From Acidimicrobiia bacterium (GTDB lineage Bacteria > Actinomycetota > Acidimicrobiia > Spongiisociales > ZC4RG35), in the NCBI GenBank assembly GCA_013812505.1, contig JACCTH010000055.1:1-64000 (forward strand): a stretch of DNA of 64,000 nt, written 5' to 3'. The position numbers and the translations under genes were made by a program. The notes under the pieces were generated by a model. The model did not search any database. It worked only from the letters and a program-made list of their open reading frames with translations, and was not told the DNA's origin. Positions 24,500 to 31,889 of the stretch are shown in pieces (position 1 is the first letter of the stretch; each line of letters starts with the position of its first letter).

Positions 24500-25636
24500 C
24501 TAGCGCGCCAGCCAGACGGTGACGAGCTCGGGGTGCATGGTGGTGTCGACGACCCTGGTGAGGTCACGGGTTAGATCCTCGAGGTCGGTCTCGAGCCGCA
24601 TGCGGGCACCGAAAGAGTCGATGGTTTGCTGGGCGTCGTACTTTTGGCGGCTGAACTGTCGATCGACAATGCTTTGGACTCGTCGGAGCGCGGGGCGGAA
24701 AACGGCAGCGGCGACGAGGGTTGCCAAGGCGACAGCGAGGTTGCTGCTCGAACCTACCGCGATCGAGGCAACGGCAAAGACGGTGACGGCGTAAGTCGCC
24801 GCCACGATCGCCGCCACAATCGCATACGACACCGTGCGGCTGACCAAGCGCCCAAGGTCGTAAAGGCGATAGCGGAGCACGGCCACGGCAATCGCGGACA
24901 TCACCACGATGATCAGCAGGGCGAAGATCGTGTTGCCGAGTTCCTCTAAACCCGCCTCGTAAGCCACCAGGTTCACGAGCGCGCCCGCCACCGCGAAGAG
25001 AATCGCCCCGGCGAACAACTTCATTTGCTGGCGTTGGATTCCCACCGAACAGCGATAACGGACAACAGCCGTGATCATCGAGGCGAGGATGGCGAGAAGC
25101 GCCAGGATCATCCCCAGCGTCGCGGTCAGGTCGAAAACCAAGTCGGTAAGCGGCAGCGCAACCGGGGATGAAAAGCTGCCCTCCTCACCGAGTGAGATCG
25201 TTGGCCGGAAGGCGTTGCCAAGGACAAGCAGGCCCACCCCGACAAGCGCGCTCACGATGATCCATCGACTGCGATGGCTCGGCAGCCGACCGTCGGGAAA
25301 CAGGAGCGGGAGGAACACCAACAGAAAGACCATGCTCAAGGCCCACTGCCAGCTGCCGAACCAGGCACCCCATTGGGCGAGCGGGCTGTCCGTGCTCGCC
25401 AGCGACTCGCCGTACACACCAAGCAGAAAGCTGAAACCGAACCCGGCCAGGATCAGGCCAACGGGGTTGTCGGGTACTCGCCAGCCGAGGTAGGTGCCAA
25501 CCAGGGAAGGGCTGACAAAGGCAATAACGCTTACGATATCCGTGAAGATGTTTGAACTGTCGACATTCAGGGTGGTGAGGCCAAAGATGAGCGCCAGAGC
25601 TCCGACGCCAAGCGCTACCGCCAACCAGCGGCGCAT
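24500..25636 (-). CDS. Sensor-like integral membrane protein, tandem paralogue 3
   Basis: 378 residues with 8-10 predicted helices, then a cytoplasmic tail. The shared family signature is present: AVAVLRYRLYDLGRLVSRTVSYAIVAAIVAATYAV before the last helices, then FRPALRRVQSIVDRQFSRQKYDAQQTIDSFGARMR and the C-terminal PELVTVWLAR. In other actinobacteria this module precedes a GAF or histidine-kinase domain; here the protein ends where an output domain would begin. The start overlaps the previous paralogue's stop (TGATG), so the three genes form one operon. Function unknown. Confidence 0.82.
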   Translation of the reverse strand: MRRWLAVALGVGALALIFGLTTLNVDSSNIFTDIVSVIAFVSPSLVGTYLGWRVPDNPVGLILAGFGFSFLLGVYGESLASTDSPLAQWGAWFGSWQWALSMVFLLVFLPLLFPDGRLPSHRSRWIIVSALVGVGLLVLGNAFRPTISLGEEGSFSSPVALPLTDLVFDLTATLGMILALLAILASMITAVVRYRCSVGIQRQQMKLFAGAILFAVAGALVNLVAYEAGLEELGNTIFALLIIVVMSAIAVAVLRYRLYDLGRLVSRTVSYAIVAAIVAATYAVTVFAVASIAVGSSSNLAVALATLVAAAVFRPALRRVQSIVDRQFSRQKYDAQQTIDSFGARMRLETDLEDLTRDLTRVVDTTMHPELVTVWLAR

Positions 25637-26758
25637 CAGATGTTGCGCAGCCAGAGGCCGACCGAAGCCGGCCGCAGGGTTCCGCTGACCAAATTCACTA
25701 GGTCATCGAAGACGTGGCTGACATCGACCTCGTCGAGCAGACGCTGTGAGAACCGATCCACCACCTGGATTGAGTCGTAGTGACCGCGATGGAAGCGCTT
25801 TTCCACCGTCTGCATGACTCGTCGCCGAAGCGGATTGGAACAACGCCGCTGCCAGCAACGTCGTCCCGGCGACAAACAGCGGGGTCTGCTCACCCACCAG
25901 GCGAGTTGGCAGCCAGACCGCCCCGAACCCGTAGATAGCAGCCACGATCGCCGCCACCAGGGCAAAACCAACAGTGCGCGACATGATGCGATCGATCTCG
26001 AAGAGCCGGTAGCGGAGAACGGCAACTCCAATCGCCAGCGGGAGCAGGTTGAGCACGATCGGAGCGAGCCAGGCAAAGTCGAGCTGTTGGAAGAGCCCCT
26101 CTGGAGCCAGGAGCAAGATTGTCACGAGTAGCGCAAAGACGAACCACTGCAACTGGAGTCGCTCCACCCCCTGGCTCCGCCGCCACCTGACGAAGAGGCT
26201 GACGAGACCGAATAGCAACAGCAGAGGAACGATCAGAAAGCCCTGCTCCTCGTTTATGAAGCTGGTGGGCGCTCGCAGCATTTCGATCGCAAGTGGGCTT
26301 GTCAGTCCGGAGAAGTCGAGCGGCGCAGGATCGACCACAACGCTCACGAAAAGGACGGCTCCGACAACGACCAGCACCCGCCGGATCCACTGGCTTGTCC
26401 GAGAGCTTGCACGTCCGGACGGAAATATCAGGGTGAGATCGATCATGAACAGCCAGGGGAGCATCCCCACCGGTTCCGACAGCAATTCGAACCACACCAC
26501 CGAGGGCGACGCGAGGGAACGATCGATCAGCGCTTCGAGGATGAAGTTGAGCCCCCAACCGAATCCAATGCCGACGAGCAGGCGACCGATGGAATTCTGG
26601 GGTTGCTTCCAGACCAGCACTCCGCCGACGATTGGATAACCGAGCCAGCTCAACGCCCACCACCCTTCGGGAGTGAACGAGCCCAAAATCAATCCGACCA
26701 ACCCGACAGTCACCAAGATCATCCACGGCAGGCGGCTATTCATCGTTCTCGCATCCAC
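25636..26758 (-). pseudogene. Sensor-like integral membrane protein, tandem paralogue 2, frameshifted
   Basis: Two overlapping frames together give one full family member. From 26758 the N-terminal helices read normally to LLAAALF. The frame then breaks at the GG at 25837-25838; with one base removed, it continues as NPLRRRVMQTVEKRFHRGHYDSIQVVDRFSQRLLDEVD and ends GLWLRNI at 25636. Joined, it is about 373 residues, like its neighbours. A single-base insertion, genuine or from sequencing, explains it. It overlaps paralogue 1 by 19 bp and paralogue 3 by a few bases. Confidence 0.85.
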
Positions 26759-27885
26759 ACTCCCGCCGAAGCCGGACTCATCGTTCGGATAACGACGCCG
26801 AGCCAGTCCGACGTGAGCCTCTCCATGTCGACCTGTTCGCGCAGGCGGCCGGCAAAGTCGGACATGACGCGGTCGGGGTCGTAACGCGACCGGTGGAACC
26901 GACGGTCGACAGCACGGATGACACGACGTCTAACCGGATTGAATAATGCTGCGGCTAGCAGTGTGGCTCCCGCGACGAAGATCGGAGACTGTTCGCCGGT
27001 CACGCGAGTCGGCAGCCACACCGCAATCGTGACATAAACCAACGCCAGGAATACGACCACCAATCCGTATCCCAGAGTTCGGGAGATGATCCGGTCGATG
27101 TCATAGAGCCGGTATTTGAGAATCGCCACCCCGATCGAAACTGGCAGCGCGACGACGCCGAGGCCGAAGAGGACGCCGCCGAGCCATAACGGCATGGGAA
27201 CCGATTCCTGCACCAAGGCAATCGCGAAGAGGGCGACAGCTGAAAGGAGCAGCCATTTCAGTTGCAACCTCTCGACTCCTCGAGAACGGAAGAACCGATA
27301 AGCGATTCCTCCGATCGAAGCGACGATGAAAACTCCGAGGACCGCGGTGTTCAGCCCGCCGAGCGGACCGTATTCCGGGTTTGGTATCGCCGGAATCCCG
27401 ATGGGGTTGCGAGCCCAGTTGGTGCAGATGCCGTCGTCGTTGGTTTCGAGGCAGATCTCGCCGGCAACCAGGTAGCTGAGGCTCACCGCGGCCCCGACGA
27501 AACCGATCCATTCCACGAACCGCCACCTACGACTCGGGACCCGCCCGGTGGGAAACCAAAGGAAAAGGAATCCGGCCAAAACGAACCAGCTCAACCACAG
27601 CGTTCCCCCGATTGCCTCTCCGGCGACGAGCCCTTTCTGATTCAGCAGCTCGGCGATCCCGGCTCCGATCAGTGACAAGCCGATCAAGGACAAAACCCAA
27701 CCGAGCCTGTTGCCTGAGGCCCTCGCTAGGACGATGACCCCGACGGCGACGAAAACCACCGCCGCCATTAGGAGCAGGGCATCGAAACCCACCCATCCCT
27801 CGGCGGCCTGCCAGATCGCCCCGGCCGCTCCGATCACGGCAATGACTGAAGGCGCGATTAGGCGACGACGCGACTTGTCAACCAC
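26740..27885 (-). CDS. Sensor-like integral membrane protein, tandem paralogue 1
   Basis: 381 residues, first gene of the three-gene tandem. N-terminal helices (VIAVIGAAGAIWQA, LLLMAAVVFVAVGVIVLA) are followed by an extracytoplasmic loop with two cysteines (EICLETNDDGICTN) that may be disulfide bonded and is absent from the other two. The shared C-terminal module follows: VAILKYRLYDIDRIISRTLGYG, then FNPVRRRVIRAVDRRFHRSRYDPDRVMSDFAGRLR and GVWMRER. No kinase, GAF or DNA-binding output domain is attached. The different ectodomains suggest the three copies sense different inputs. Confidence 0.82.
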   Translation of the reverse strand: MVDKSRRRLIAPSVIAVIGAAGAIWQAAEGWVGFDALLLMAAVVFVAVGVIVLARASGNRLGWVLSLIGLSLIGAGIAELLNQKGLVAGEAIGGTLWLSWFVLAGFLFLWFPTGRVPSRRWRFVEWIGFVGAAVSLSYLVAGEICLETNDDGICTNWARNPIGIPAIPNPEYGPLGGLNTAVLGVFIVASIGGIAYRFFRSRGVERLQLKWLLLSAVALFAIALVQESVPMPLWLGGVLFGLGVVALPVSIGVAILKYRLYDIDRIISRTLGYGLVVVFLALVYVTIAVWLPTRVTGEQSPIFVAGATLLAAALFNPVRRRVIRAVDRRFHRSRYDPDRVMSDFAGRLREQVDMERLTSDWLGVVIRTMSPASAGVWMRER

Positions 27886-27919: not shown

Positions 27920-28291
27920 TTACGGCCGGTCGAGGATCCGATTGACTGCATCCAGCACCGCTTTGGCGGTTGCCACCGCCGGGTCGCCGCCGCGGACGAT
28001 GGCGCTGCCAACCAGCTCATGGCCACCCTGGTGCACCTGGGCAAGGGCCACTCGCAAGCTCCCCAGATCTGATGACGCCACGGCCGACAGATCGAGGGCC
28101 AAGTCAGGAGAAATGCTGCGGAGGGCCCGCAAGGTTGCTTCGCCCACCAATCGGTGGCGGTGACCGGGACTCCCATCTCCTTCCGCCCGACCGCGGTATT
28201 GGCTGTGCTGGGCAGTCAGGGTCACCTCGACTACGGCCCGTTCCCCGACCAACTTCTGGTCGATGGTGGACAGCGCCGGGCGGGGAGGCAT
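27920..28291 (-). CDS. Hypothetical protein
   Basis: A 123-residue soluble protein, no signal peptide or membrane helix. The N-terminal half is polar and basic (QHSQYRGRAEGDGSPGHRHR). The C-terminal half is orderly: VGEATLRALRSI then VASSDLGSLRVALAQVHQG and ELVGSAIVRGGDPAVATAK ending AVLDAVNRILD, a pattern I associate with actinobacterial proteins of unknown function that have a LeuA-dimer-like alpha/beta C-terminal domain. It is divergent from mscL and close to the end of the tandem membrane-protein operon. Confidence 0.6.
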   Translation of the reverse strand: MPPRPALSTIDQKLVGERAVVEVTLTAQHSQYRGRAEGDGSPGHRHRLVGEATLRALRSISPDLALDLSAVASSDLGSLRVALAQVHQGGHELVGSAIVRGGDPAVATAKAVLDAVNRILDRP

Positions 28292-28335
28292 CCAGTCATT
28301 ATGGTCTCACGAGTCCTACGTCTCCTGGAGGGAAG

Positions 28336-28695
28336 ATGATCAAGGAATTCAAAGAGTTCATCAGCCGAGGCAACTTGGTCGAGATAGCCGTTGCTTTCGT
28401 ACTCGGGGTTGCGTTTGCGTCGGTGGTGACCACTCTCACCGAGCGCGTCATAGGACCGGCAATCGGATTGGTTTTCCAACTCGACGACCTCAGCGCGATG
28501 GGAACCTTTGGCGACAACGGCAGCTTTGGAGCCTTTCTCCAAGCGATCATCAACTTCGTGATCGTGGCGTGGGTGATGTTCCTTGTAGTCAAGGCCTACA
28601 ACCGGATGAAGAAGCCGGCGGGCGAGGTGCCTGTCGCTCCCACCGAAGACATCGTGCTCCTGCGCGAGATCCGCGACCGCCTGCAACGCCGTTAG
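28336..28695 (+). CDS. mscL: MscL, large-conductance mechanosensitive channel
   Basis: Pentameric inner-membrane channel that opens under osmotic downshock. 119 residues: the amphipathic N-helix MIKEFKEFISRGN, TM1 with the pore motif VEIAVAFVLGVAFASVVTTL, a short periplasmic loop, TM2 IINFVIVAWVMFLVVKAYN, and the C-terminal cytoplasmic helix IVLLREIRDRLQ. GGAGGG lies a few bases before ATG 28336. Length and order match the family well. Confidence 0.96.
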   Translation: MIKEFKEFISRGNLVEIAVAFVLGVAFASVVTTLTERVIGPAIGLVFQLDDLSAMGTFGDNGSFGAFLQAIINFVIVAWVMFLVVKAYNRMKKPAGEVPVAPTEDIVLLREIRDRLQRR

Positions 28696-28729
28696 GCCGT
28701 CGCTTGACTACCCAGCCTCGACGGGTATC

Positions 28730-29092
28730 ATGCCACGCATGGTACCTAGCCAAACCGGGCAGGAACATAGCAGTCAGTTGCTGAAAGGAGTGCTCGACAT
28801 GTGTCTCTTGGCGCTGGTCGCCGAGCAGCCAACCTACGGGTACGAGATGGCGCGCAAGCTTGAGGAGCGGGGGCTCCATCTCGCCTCGGAGGGCAGCATC
28901 TATCCGCTGCTGTCGCGGCTGCAGCGCCAGGGCCTCGTCGAGGGATATCTGGTCGAATCGGGTGGTGGTCCCGCCCGCAAGTACTACCGGTTGGCGGCGG
29001 CCGGCACCTTGACTTTGTCGGCCTGGATCTCTGACTGGAATGCACTTGCCGCCGGAGTCAACGGCGTGATCAACGGAGCCCGGCATGACTGA
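28730..29092 (+). CDS. PadR-family transcriptional regulator
   Basis: 120-residue winged-helix regulator. The family pattern is LLKGVLDMCLLALVAEQPTYGYEMARKLEERG, then ASEGSIYPLLSRLQRQGLVEGYLVES and RKYYRLAAAG, with a short C-terminal helix as in PadR subfamily 2. It overlaps the next gene by 8 bp. That product begins with a HAAS-like segment, the usual membrane partner of PadR proteins, so the pair probably controls this locus or responds to envelope state. ATG 28739 is an alternative start. Confidence 0.9.
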   Translation: MPRMVPSQTGQEHSSQLLKGVLDMCLLALVAEQPTYGYEMARKLEERGLHLASEGSIYPLLSRLQRQGLVEGYLVESGGGPARKYYRLAAAGTLTLSAWISDWNALAAGVNGVINGARHD

Positions 29093-29873
29093 CCAGGGGG
29101 CGATAGCCCGCATCCTCTCCGAATGTGTGCGCTACTGGCGCGAGACCGGACTGTCGAGTGGTGTCATCGCGGAGATGAGGGACCAGCTAGCCGAGCACCT
29201 GCGGGAGACGACCTCCGCGGGCAATCCCCCGGACCGAGTAGTCGGATCAGATCTCGCCGAGTTCGCCGAGAACTGGGCTGCGGAGTATCGCTCGCGAGCG
29301 CCCCGGCAGGCCTGGACAGAAGTCGCCAGCGGCGAGCGCGCCAATCGTCGTGCCCGGCAACGAGAAATGATCCTCTACGGCTTGGGGATCGTCGCCCTCG
29401 TCGTCGCAGTCGCCGTATCCGAAGGAGATGCAAGCGTGGACAACGAAGTTTGGCGATGGCTATGGACGGGTTTTGCAATAGTGATGGGGCTCGGCGAGAT
29501 CTTCACGGCCGGATTCTTCCTCCTGCCCTTTGCCATCGGGGCGGCCGCTGCCGCGATCCTGTCTTGGATCGGCGTTTCGATCATGGCCCAGTGGTTGGTG
29601 TTCTTTGGAGTCTCGCTCGTCGCCATGGTTTATCTGCGACGCTTCATCAAACGGCAGGACGAGGCTGCCCCTCAGTCGGTGGGCGCCAACCGCTGGGCCA
29701 ACACCCGGGGCATCGTCCTCGAAGCGATCGACCCGTTGACCTCCTCCGGCATCGTCCGGATCGGCGGTGAAGAGTGGCGGGCCATATCCGATCAGCCCAT
29801 TCCGGCGGGAAGTCAGGTCATCGTGCGGGAAGTCACCGGGTCACGGCTAGTTGTGACTCCATTGCAGTCATAG
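29085..29873 (+). CDS. HAAS-like domain fused to NfeD membrane protein
   Basis: 262 residues in one frame. Residues 1-95 are cytoplasmic and helical (IARILSECVRYWRETGLSSGVIAEMRDQLAEHLRE), resembling the HAAS-type partner domain usually found on PadR-linked membrane proteins. From about residue 125, LWTGFAIVMGLGEIFTAGFFLLPFAIGAAAAAILSW begins a short NfeD membrane core, and the last 65 residues form the NfeD OB fold (RGIVLEAIDPLTSSGIVRI). NfeD normally partners the slipin encoded 24 bp downstream. The fusion ties a PadR signalling domain to an NfeD-slipin pair; the HAAS assignment is moderate. Confidence 0.8.
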   Translation: MTDQGAIARILSECVRYWRETGLSSGVIAEMRDQLAEHLRETTSAGNPPDRVVGSDLAEFAENWAAEYRSRAPRQAWTEVASGERANRRARQREMILYGLGIVALVVAVAVSEGDASVDNEVWRWLWTGFAIVMGLGEIFTAGFFLLPFAIGAAAAAILSWIGVSIMAQWLVFFGVSLVAMVYLRRFIKRQDEAAPQSVGANRWANTRGIVLEAIDPLTSSGIVRIGGEEWRAISDQPIPAGSQVIVREVTGSRLVVTPLQS

Positions 29874-29897
29874 GTCAGAAGGAAAGGAACATCGGTA

Positions 29898-30812
29898 ATG
29901 GACAACAGTGCGTTGGTGCTGCTCTTTGCAGTGGTCGCGTTCGCTTTGATCTTGATCGCCGCCACAGGCTTTCGGGTGGTGCGACCGTTCGAGCGAGGGC
30001 TGGTGGAGCTTCTCGGTCGCTACGAGAAGACGGTCGAATCCGGCCTGCGCTGGGTCATGCCGTTTGTCAAGCGGTTGGCGAAAGTCGACATGCGCGAGCA
30101 GGTGGTCGATGTTCCCCCGCAAGAGGTGATCACCAAGGACAACGTCGTGGTGACAGTCGACGCCGTCATCTACTTCGAAGCCACCGACCCGGTGAAGCTG
30201 AAGTACAACGTCCAAAACTTCTCGCTGGCGGTCACGAAGCTGGCGCAAACCAACCTCCGCAACGTGGTCGGTGACCTCGACCTCGACACTGCCCTGACCA
30301 GCCGAGACATCATCAATGCCAAGCTGCGGGCAATCCTCGACGACGCCACCGACAAGTGGGGTACTCGGGTGGTGCGGGTTGAGATCCAGCGAATCGAGCC
30401 GCCGGCCGACGTCACCGAAGCCATGCACCGCCAGATGAAGGCCGAGCGCCTTCGACGAGCCGTCGTGACGGAAGCGGAAGGTGAAAAGACAGCTCGAGTC
30501 CTTCACGCGGAGGGCGTCAAGGCGAGCTCGATCATCGAGGCCGAGGGTCAAGCCGCCTCCATCAAGTTGGTAGCCGATGCGGCCCGCTATCAAAAAGAGA
30601 CTGTCGCTGAAGGTGAAGCCGCGGCGATCGAAAGGGTGTACCAGGCCATCCACACGGGTAACCCGACCCCCGATCTGGTCGCCATCAAGTACCTGGAGGC
30701 ATTGCAGGTTGTCGCCAACGGTCAGGCGACCAAGATCTTCCTGCCGATGGACTCGACAGTCGCCATGGGCGCACTGGCCGCCGCCGGCGAGCTCTTCCGC
30801 GACAAGCCCTAA
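29898..30812 (+). CDS. Slipin (SPFH/stomatin family membrane protein)
   Basis: 304-residue membrane-anchored scaffold. One N-terminal helix (LVLLFAVVAFALILIAATGF) precedes the SPFH domain: VRPFERGLVELLGRYEKTVESGLRW, VDMREQVVDVPPQEVITKDNVVVTVDAVIYF, and VTKLAQTNLRNVVGDLDLDTAL. A coiled-coil flotillin-like region rich in EAEGEK/AEG follows. Such proteins oligomerise into membrane microdomains and pair with NfeD, encoded just upstream, so padR-nfeD-slipin is one operon. Palindromic repeat copy C starts seven bases after its stop. Confidence 0.93.
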   Translation: MDNSALVLLFAVVAFALILIAATGFRVVRPFERGLVELLGRYEKTVESGLRWVMPFVKRLAKVDMREQVVDVPPQEVITKDNVVVTVDAVIYFEATDPVKLKYNVQNFSLAVTKLAQTNLRNVVGDLDLDTALTSRDIINAKLRAILDDATDKWGTRVVRVEIQRIEPPADVTEAMHRQMKAERLRRAVVTEAEGEKTARVLHAEGVKASSIIEAEGQAASIKLVADAARYQKETVAEGEAAAIERVYQAIHTGNPTPDLVAIKYLEALQVVANGQATKIFLPMDSTVAMGALAAAGELFRDKP

Positions 30813-30819
30813 CCACTTC

Positions 30820-30870
30820 CCAAACCTAAGGTATGCGTGGTGGCATAGCCACCAAAATCGCCTAAAGAAT
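30820..30870 (+). repeat. Dispersed palindromic repeat, copy C
   Basis: Left arm CCTAAGGTATGCG, core GTGGTGGCATAGCCACC, right arm AATCGCCTAAAG (degenerate). It starts seven bases after the slipin stop and overlaps the convergent DUF559 gene's stop. The CAAACC-type arm faces the slipin gene, the same relative orientation as copies A and E. Confidence 0.88.
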
Positions 30871-31806
30871 GACTGGCGCGCTCTCGATGGCGCGCTGGAT
30901 CATGCTCCGAACCATCTCCGGTTGGTCCTTGAGCATTCGATATGTGATTCGGAGAACCCGCCATCCCGCCAGCAAGGCGTGGTTGTCGCGCAGCCGATCG
31001 GTTTCGAACGCTTCCAGGGTCGAGTGCCACGCTCGACCGTCGACCTCGATGATCAGGCGCCACTGCGGATAGGCGAAGTCGACCCTTCCCGGACGTATTG
31101 GCCTCCACGGCAACGGGAACTGGACGACCGGCTCGGGGAACCCCGAGTCGGAAAGGAAGCGCAGGGTCAGCAACTCGAGCTCGCTATCTCCCACGAGTGT
31201 TTCGCCGACTCGCAGCTCCAGGACTTTGCCCATTGTGCGCATCCCGGGTTTGCCCCGTCTCGTCAGGTTCATGACCTCTGTGCAAATGGCGTCGAGCGTT
31301 GCTCGCTTGTCCACGATGATCCGATCGACGATCGGCCCGATCTGATGTGGTTTCATCTGGCTCGCCAGGTCGATGACGGTGCGAACGATGGTCGTAACAG
31401 CTAGGCCCTGGATCTCGATGACGTATTGAGGTCCGAGGTCGGTGGATTGGTGCACGATGACGTCGGGAAAGCGATGGGTCCGTCGGACCCTGACGGTGAC
31501 GACCGCCAGCCCGCGTCGAACGCGCGGAAGATCGTGGATCTCGGCGGCCGCTTCGTGGGAAACGACGGCTCCTAACGCGGCACAAGCAGCGGCGAGCTGG
31601 CCCCTTACGGTGTTATCGAAACCAGGAATGAGGTACAGCCCCGGAGACTCCGATTTCCAAAGGCCCGACTCGGTGCGGTGGCGGATAGATGCTGGGCTCA
31701 TTCCACAGGCGATGGCTTGACGACGGGTCACGTATCCGGATTGACAGCCAGCGAGTTCATAGGTCTTGAGTTCGGCGGGAGTGATCACCCACCCAGCATG
31801 AGTCAT
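30862..31806 (-). CDS. AbiEi-type winged-helix plus DUF559 nuclease-like protein
   Basis: About 314 residues from ATG 31806. The N-terminal part (ELAGCQSGYVTRRQAIACGMSPASIRHRTESGLW) looks like the AbiEi_4 winged-helix domain of type IV antitoxin-like proteins. The C-terminal part is DUF559, a Vsr/endonuclease-like fold with VDFAYPQWRLIIEVDGRAWHS and a final WRVLRITYRMLKDQPE. Such proteins are numerous in actinobacteria and their activity is not established. No AbiEii nucleotidyltransferase partner is adjacent. Starting at 31875 would place the N-terminus inside repeat copy D. Confidence 0.83.
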   Translation of the reverse strand: MTHAGWVITPAELKTYELAGCQSGYVTRRQAIACGMSPASIRHRTESGLWKSESPGLYLIPGFDNTVRGQLAAACAALGAVVSHEAAAEIHDLPRVRRGLAVVTVRVRRTHRFPDVIVHQSTDLGPQYVIEIQGLAVTTIVRTVIDLASQMKPHQIGPIVDRIIVDKRATLDAICTEVMNLTRRGKPGMRTMGKVLELRVGETLVGDSELELLTLRFLSDSGFPEPVVQFPLPWRPIRPGRVDFAYPQWRLIIEVDGRAWHSTLEAFETDRLRDNHALLAGWRVLRITYRMLKDQPEMVRSMIQRAIESAPVIL

Positions 31807-31840
31807 GGAAGGGCTCGTGCCTAGATGGTTGTCCCCGATT

Positions 31841-31889
31841 CTGAAGGCAATCGTGGTGGCATAGCCACCACGCAAACCTTAGGTTTCAG
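31841..31889 (-). repeat. Dispersed palindromic repeat, copy D (inverted orientation)
   Basis: Core GTGGTGGCATAGCCACCAC with right arm GCAAACCTTAGG and left arm AAGGCAATC. Arm identity shows that it is inverted relative to copies A, C and E, and the gene it terminates is also on the minus strand. The TAA stop of the lipoprotein gene at 31879-31881 lies inside the element. Confidence 0.88.

Follow-up and report, generated by a model that had tools for sequence, protein, structure and literature searches.

A HAAS-like domain fused to NfeD and coupled to padR in a putative autoregulated slipin operon of Acidimicrobiia

Organization of the locus and of the padR promoter region

The DNA analysed here is a stretch of 64,000 nucleotides (the window) from an Acidimicrobiia genome. 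According to the open reading frames read from the sequence, padR, a gene encoding a HAAS-NfeD fusion and a slipin gene form a single operon on the plus strand, with the following features:

28336-28695, plus strand: mscL, large-conductance mechanosensitive channel (PF01741, E 4.6e-32), an upstream neighbour outside the core operon
28704-28731, plus strand: putative sigma-70-like promoter of padR (-35 TTGACT at 28704-28709, -10 TATCAT at 28726-28731, spacer 16)
28724-28746, no strand: predicted palindromic operator GGTATCATG-ccacg-CATGGTACC, spanning the -10 and the padR start codon
28739-29092, plus strand: padR, 117 aa (PF03551, E 1.2e-22, 80.1 bits against a cut-off of 27; start placed by the conserved ATGGTA)
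29085-29873, plus strand: HAAS-TM-NfeD fusion gene, 262 aa
29085-29312, plus strand: HAAS/DUF1048-superfamily domain, residues 1-76 of the fusion protein
29334-29414, plus strand: TM1, extra transmembrane helix, residues 84-110 (model, hydropathy)
29433-29663, plus strand: membrane part of NfeD with three helices, residues 117-140, 147-161 and 166-193 (model)
29706-29861, plus strand: C-terminal OB-fold domain of NfeD, residues 208-259 (PF01957, E 3.4e-14; Foldseek)
29898-30812, plus strand: slipin (SPFH/Band 7), 304 aa (PF01145, Band_7, E 1.2e-40), downstream of NfeD in both long and short loci

A first reading of the sequence alone had grouped these three genes in one locus, and the Pfam assignments of PadR, of the NfeD C-terminal domain and of Band_7 confirm it. 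The 8-bp overlap that it had claimed between padR (end 29092) and the fusion gene (start 29085) agrees with the coordinates and is kept in nearly all fusion loci, while a gap of 24 bp separates the fusion gene from slipin. Its padR start at 28730 (120 aa) has to be replaced: promoter geometry and the conserved ATGGTA, found in most relatives, favour the ATG at 28739. A search of Rfam over 28000-31500 gave no match.

The mscL gene lies close upstream of padR (34-78 bp) in seven family members, this genome included, and at about 540-640 bp in two more, for a total of nine loci; in two loci of another family it is found downstream of slipin. Loci named for this adjacency are L002, L003, L005, L007, L008, L010, L012, L017, L029 and L030. 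This recurrence hints at membrane tension, mscL being only a neighbour. On the minus strand, 24500-27885 encodes three tandem and mutually similar long membrane proteins, one weakly matching HisKA_7TM, all apparently of a 7TM sensor-like type in which no kinase domain was recognised. Convergent with slipin, also on the minus strand, 30862-31875 encodes a protein whose N terminus resembles AbiEi antitoxins and whose C terminus is DUF559/REase-like.

The padR promoter is the sole promoter-like site within 28400-31000, and its -35-like element, TTGAC(T/A), is found in many relatives. The -10 falls within the left half of the predicted operator, GGTATCATG, and the ATG at 28739 within the right half, CATGGTACC, with N5 between them; given this promoter and start geometry, the padR transcript is probably leaderless. 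An operator with this placement is predicted in most fusion loci. At 34 padR starts the operator consensus was matched at a mean of 13.7 of 18 positions, shuffled sequences giving 9.3, a caveat being that part of the operator coincides with the -10 and the start codon; in 53 loci lacking padR the mean was at chance level (9.6 against 9.5 in shuffles). Conservation was not detected at L017, L030, L075 and L087. A generic palindrome search in front of padR gave a weak signal (6.5 pairs of 9 on average, against 5.7), since the operator is frequently not the best-scoring palindrome; the position-specific consensus is clear. Other families carry CTAYCTTG-N5-CAAG palindromes, some with a second copy upstream, clear of the constraints of the start codon. 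This second copy, observed in L021, L023-L026, L069 and L073, precedes the start-codon operator by about 27 bp, suggesting, from the sequence, tandem PadR sites.

We also searched for the operator elsewhere. In its own genome 28724-28746 is the only site with zero mismatches, and the next best (contig C45, 2388-2410) lies where a second padR-HAAS pair begins, apart from which no site was found within two mismatches. Across 41 relatives, sites matching at 17 or 18 positions fall at padR starts, and weaker operator-like sites elsewhere are few. Since the sole close second copy sits at another padR-HAAS pair, regulation looks local, and the survey points to autoregulation more than to a broad stress regulon. 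The second pair (locus L111, 895-1600, on C45) also has this operator across its start codon, and its HAAS frame, which contains an in-frame TAG, may for this reason be decaying or reflect an assembly error.

The N-terminal domain and its place in the membrane protein

That the N-terminal module of the fusion resembles HAAS domains had been proposed from its sequence, and the comparison of profiles bears this out at the family level. HAAS (PF22564) matches 22 of 25 orthologous N-terminal domains (best E 5.9e-5) and DUF1048 (PF06304) matches 20 of 25 (best E 5.6e-5), with no other family found in more than one of the 25. The window protein alone (residues 1-100) has no HAAS match in Pfam and NCBIfam scans; its best match is DUF3243 (E 0.011-0.019), with DUF1048 at E 0.28. 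DUF3243 was rejected as the identity of the domain, being seen in 1/25 members, and phmmer matches of the region to designed helical proteins in the PDB were treated as compositional. A PF08006 search of the own genome gave no match, but its control was silent as well.

Among PDB sequences, the profile of the N-terminal domain has as its top match the DUF1048 structure 2O3L (E 0.013), used by Ravi et al. in unifying the HAAS superfamily (PMC11237479). Aligned by hhalign with six canonical HAAS domains, the domain gave E 1.1e-5 and a probability of 82, and the same profile recovers, in whole genomes of the phylum, DUF1048 proteins passing the Pfam cut-off. The AlphaFold2 model (pLDDT 88) has three helices (H3-21, H25-44 and H49-53/H57-71), the third broken at a conserved glycine. 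Its only confident PDB matches in Foldseek are 2O3L and 2O4T (probability 0.98-1.00, TM 0.70-0.71, rmsd 1.7-2.0), with E-values of 0.2-0.5, which for a domain this short are not significant. The GxP motif at the kink is partly kept: the glycine is nearly invariant, the window has GSDL, and a proline three residues past the glycine occurs in about 7 of 25 orthologues, as it does in DUF1048 proteins (GEDP). On these profiles and on the predicted fold, we accept that residues 1-76 belong to the HAAS/DUF1048 superfamily, an assignment made at the family level, as the window sequence alone is below threshold.

Concerning the rest of the protein, the PF01957 domain occurs in 37 of 37 orthologues, and Pfam scans detected no ClpP-like serine protease domain, so that this is not the long-form protease NfeD. 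The best Foldseek match of the NfeD part is a chain of the YbbJ-QmcA complex 8Z5G (E 1.2e-8), which holds its closest solved full-length relative; the OB domain matches 2k5h, 3wwv, 3cp0, 2exd and 2k14. Together with the position of slipin after NfeD in long and short loci, these matches uphold the proposal that the NfeD core pairs with the downstream slipin.

In the model of the fusion protein the OB domain is accompanied by four membrane helices; for short NfeD proteins, the survey passages of Hinderhofer et al. (PMC2636767) give three hydrophobic stretches. TM1 is found only with the fusion, besides a remnant in L096. Because the fusion adds one extra helix, the HAAS and OB domains would lie on one side of the membrane, and a cytoplasmic placement of both is in keeping with the arginine-rich stretches that precede TM1 and follow TM4. 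A passage of PMC13086221, citing Tan et al. 2024, describes the SPFH-NfeD cage (QmcA-YbbJ) as protruding into the cytoplasm; a closed cage might shut HAAS away from PadR.

Distribution of the fusion and its coupling to padR

The HAAS-type domain occurs in 34 of 60 relatives, and in the class it was found in 55 of 296 genomes sampled, all in the one order of Acidimicrobiia to which this genome belongs; the fusion is consequently not unique to this genome. Nearly all the genomes compared are metagenome-assembled. Outside that order we found, in the phylum, 14 loci with this HAAS type in other contexts, 12 of them with PadR upstream. As no NfeD core was detected at any of the 14, the NfeD fusion is confined, as far as sampled, to one order. 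In L167 and L168 the HAAS and NfeD parts are in different reading frames, by a frameshift, an assembly error or a true split of the gene.

The tree of NfeD core and slipin comprised 87 loci: 34 with the domain, 46 assessable without it and 7 with too little upstream sequence. We found padR in 34/34 domain-bearing loci and in 0/46 assessable short-NfeD loci, domain and padR thus being jointly present or absent in 80/80. With L072, a partial locus, and another 19 fusion loci, each bearing padR, the regulator is directly upstream in 54/54 fusion loci, and the link between HAAS module and PadR supposed from one sequence is constant among them. The state of the domain changes nine times on the tree, at least five of them forced on supported branches, and padR follows the domain in 5/5 supported independent pairs; the sign test (p 0.0625) falls short of 0.05 because five pairs are too few. 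In 20 short-NfeD genomes, where the domain is absent too, no PadR above 44% identity, that is, no orthologue, was found, while seven fusion genomes searched alongside them gave PadR at 58-84% identity. The short-form locus L096 keeps the extra membrane helix without HAAS or padR, as expected of domain loss. Such repeated coupled gain or loss of HAAS and padR is evidence of function.

Proposed regulation and comparison with known systems

We consider it probable that this is an autoregulated operon, in which PadR is paired with a HAAS domain that, along with one added transmembrane helix, has been grafted to NfeD, the partner of slipin, and in which HAAS reports the state of the scaffold or of the membrane to PadR. 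As the palindrome spans the -10 and the padR start codon, we infer that PadR binds there, and it would repress padR, haas-nfeD and slipin jointly. The extra helix would place HAAS in the cytoplasm, on the side of the NfeD OB domain, where it most likely binds PadR; that binding would respond to changes in the NfeD-slipin assembly or in the membrane around it, so that scaffold production would be matched to need. We lean, by a modest degree, towards HAAS as an anti-repressor rather than a co-repressor, and the role of "stress sensor" attributed to the fusion from its sequence may be read in the same conditional way. More tentatively, and with less than even expectation, the SPFH-NfeD cage might control transcription directly, HAAS in the slipin cage capturing or releasing PadR by the state of membrane assembly or tension, possibly tied to osmotic tension via mscL.

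Other readings of the locus differ mainly in what HAAS does. In an ordinary PadR operon, a small-ligand PadR, of which LmrR and LftR are ligand-responsive examples (PMC6624303), would repress NfeD-slipin, and the HAAS-like domain would serve the NfeD-slipin structure and never contact PadR. This is unlikely, considering that domain and padR come and go jointly in all assessable loci, that on other proteins of the phylum the same domain sits behind padR in most cases and that genomes without the domain lack the PadR orthologue. A PadR that governs a large set of membrane-protection genes and has HAAS-NfeD acting as its sensor, the stronger version of the sequence-only reading, would recall that in other bacteria PadR-HAAS systems co-occur with PSP modules (PMC11237479), but the own genome offers it only the operator at the second padR-HAAS pair, and we regard such a broad membrane-stress response as very improbable.

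A closer contender shares the favoured anatomy, of which it is a sub-case with opposite sign and no external signal: accumulated HAAS-NfeD would aid PadR repression, fixing the dose of the scaffold and sensing nothing in the membrane. The operon is compact and apparently autoregulated, and close operator sites, in this genome and in the relatives, fall at padR starts, as this homeostat would have it. Against it stand the envelope-stress modules with which HAAS pairs are associated elsewhere (PMC11237479) and the recurrent mscL neighbour, both compatible with a homeostat too; we hold it to be somewhat improbable, though a real possibility. If HAAS does report to PadR, a PadR-controlled promoter should show when the NfeD-slipin assembly changes state, giving a handle on what SPFH-NfeD scaffolds sense or do in bacteria.

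The sequence-only reading had treated direct signalling from a membrane microdomain to PadR as not known to be described. This has to be restricted, because PadR-HAAS pairs, with HAAS fused to other membrane domains, were already described and linked to membrane stress (Ravi et al. 2024, PMC11237479), and proposed to take the place of two-component signalling at the membrane. The main text of that paper mentions unnamed 2TM, 4TM and 6TM HAAS proteins and does not name NfeD. In Listeria, two PadR proteins, LstR and LltR, are autorepressors of the operons that encode them, and a DUF1700 membrane protein is encoded in that of lltR (PMC6624303). The survey passages of PMC2636767 report no such PadR regulator for SPFH-NfeD operons. 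In the literature searched, a partial set of papers, we found no HAAS-NfeD fusion and no system of PadR with NfeD; the only paper with both is a functional annotation of hypothetical proteins of Exiguobacterium. Pair and scaffold are each known, and their joining looks new within that literature. With it, the known carriers of HAAS-PadR signalling come to include a scaffold protein: in one branch of environmental actinobacteria the PadR partner domain is attached to a membrane scaffold, apparently for self-reporting to the repressor of its own genes.

Compared with the HAAS-PadR-like wHTH pair systems (PMC11237479; PF22564, HAAS_TM PF08006, DUF1048 PF06304), the locus likewise has padR followed by the N-terminal HAAS of a membrane protein, with the same three-helix fold and broken third helix, but here the membrane part is NfeD with its OB domain, and slipin follows. 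With SPFH-NfeD operons, as the survey passages of Hinderhofer et al. 2009 (PMC2636767) and the QmcA-YbbJ structure 8Z5G present them, it shares the three-helix short NfeD with OB domain and the slipin after it; the N-terminal HAAS, the fourth helix and the padR overlapping the NfeD gene are extra. The Listeria LltR/LstR operons (PMC6624303) have an autorepressing PadR, as proposed here, followed in the lltR operon by the DUF1700 (HAAS) membrane protein, whereas their effectors are other membrane proteins and here they are NfeD and slipin.
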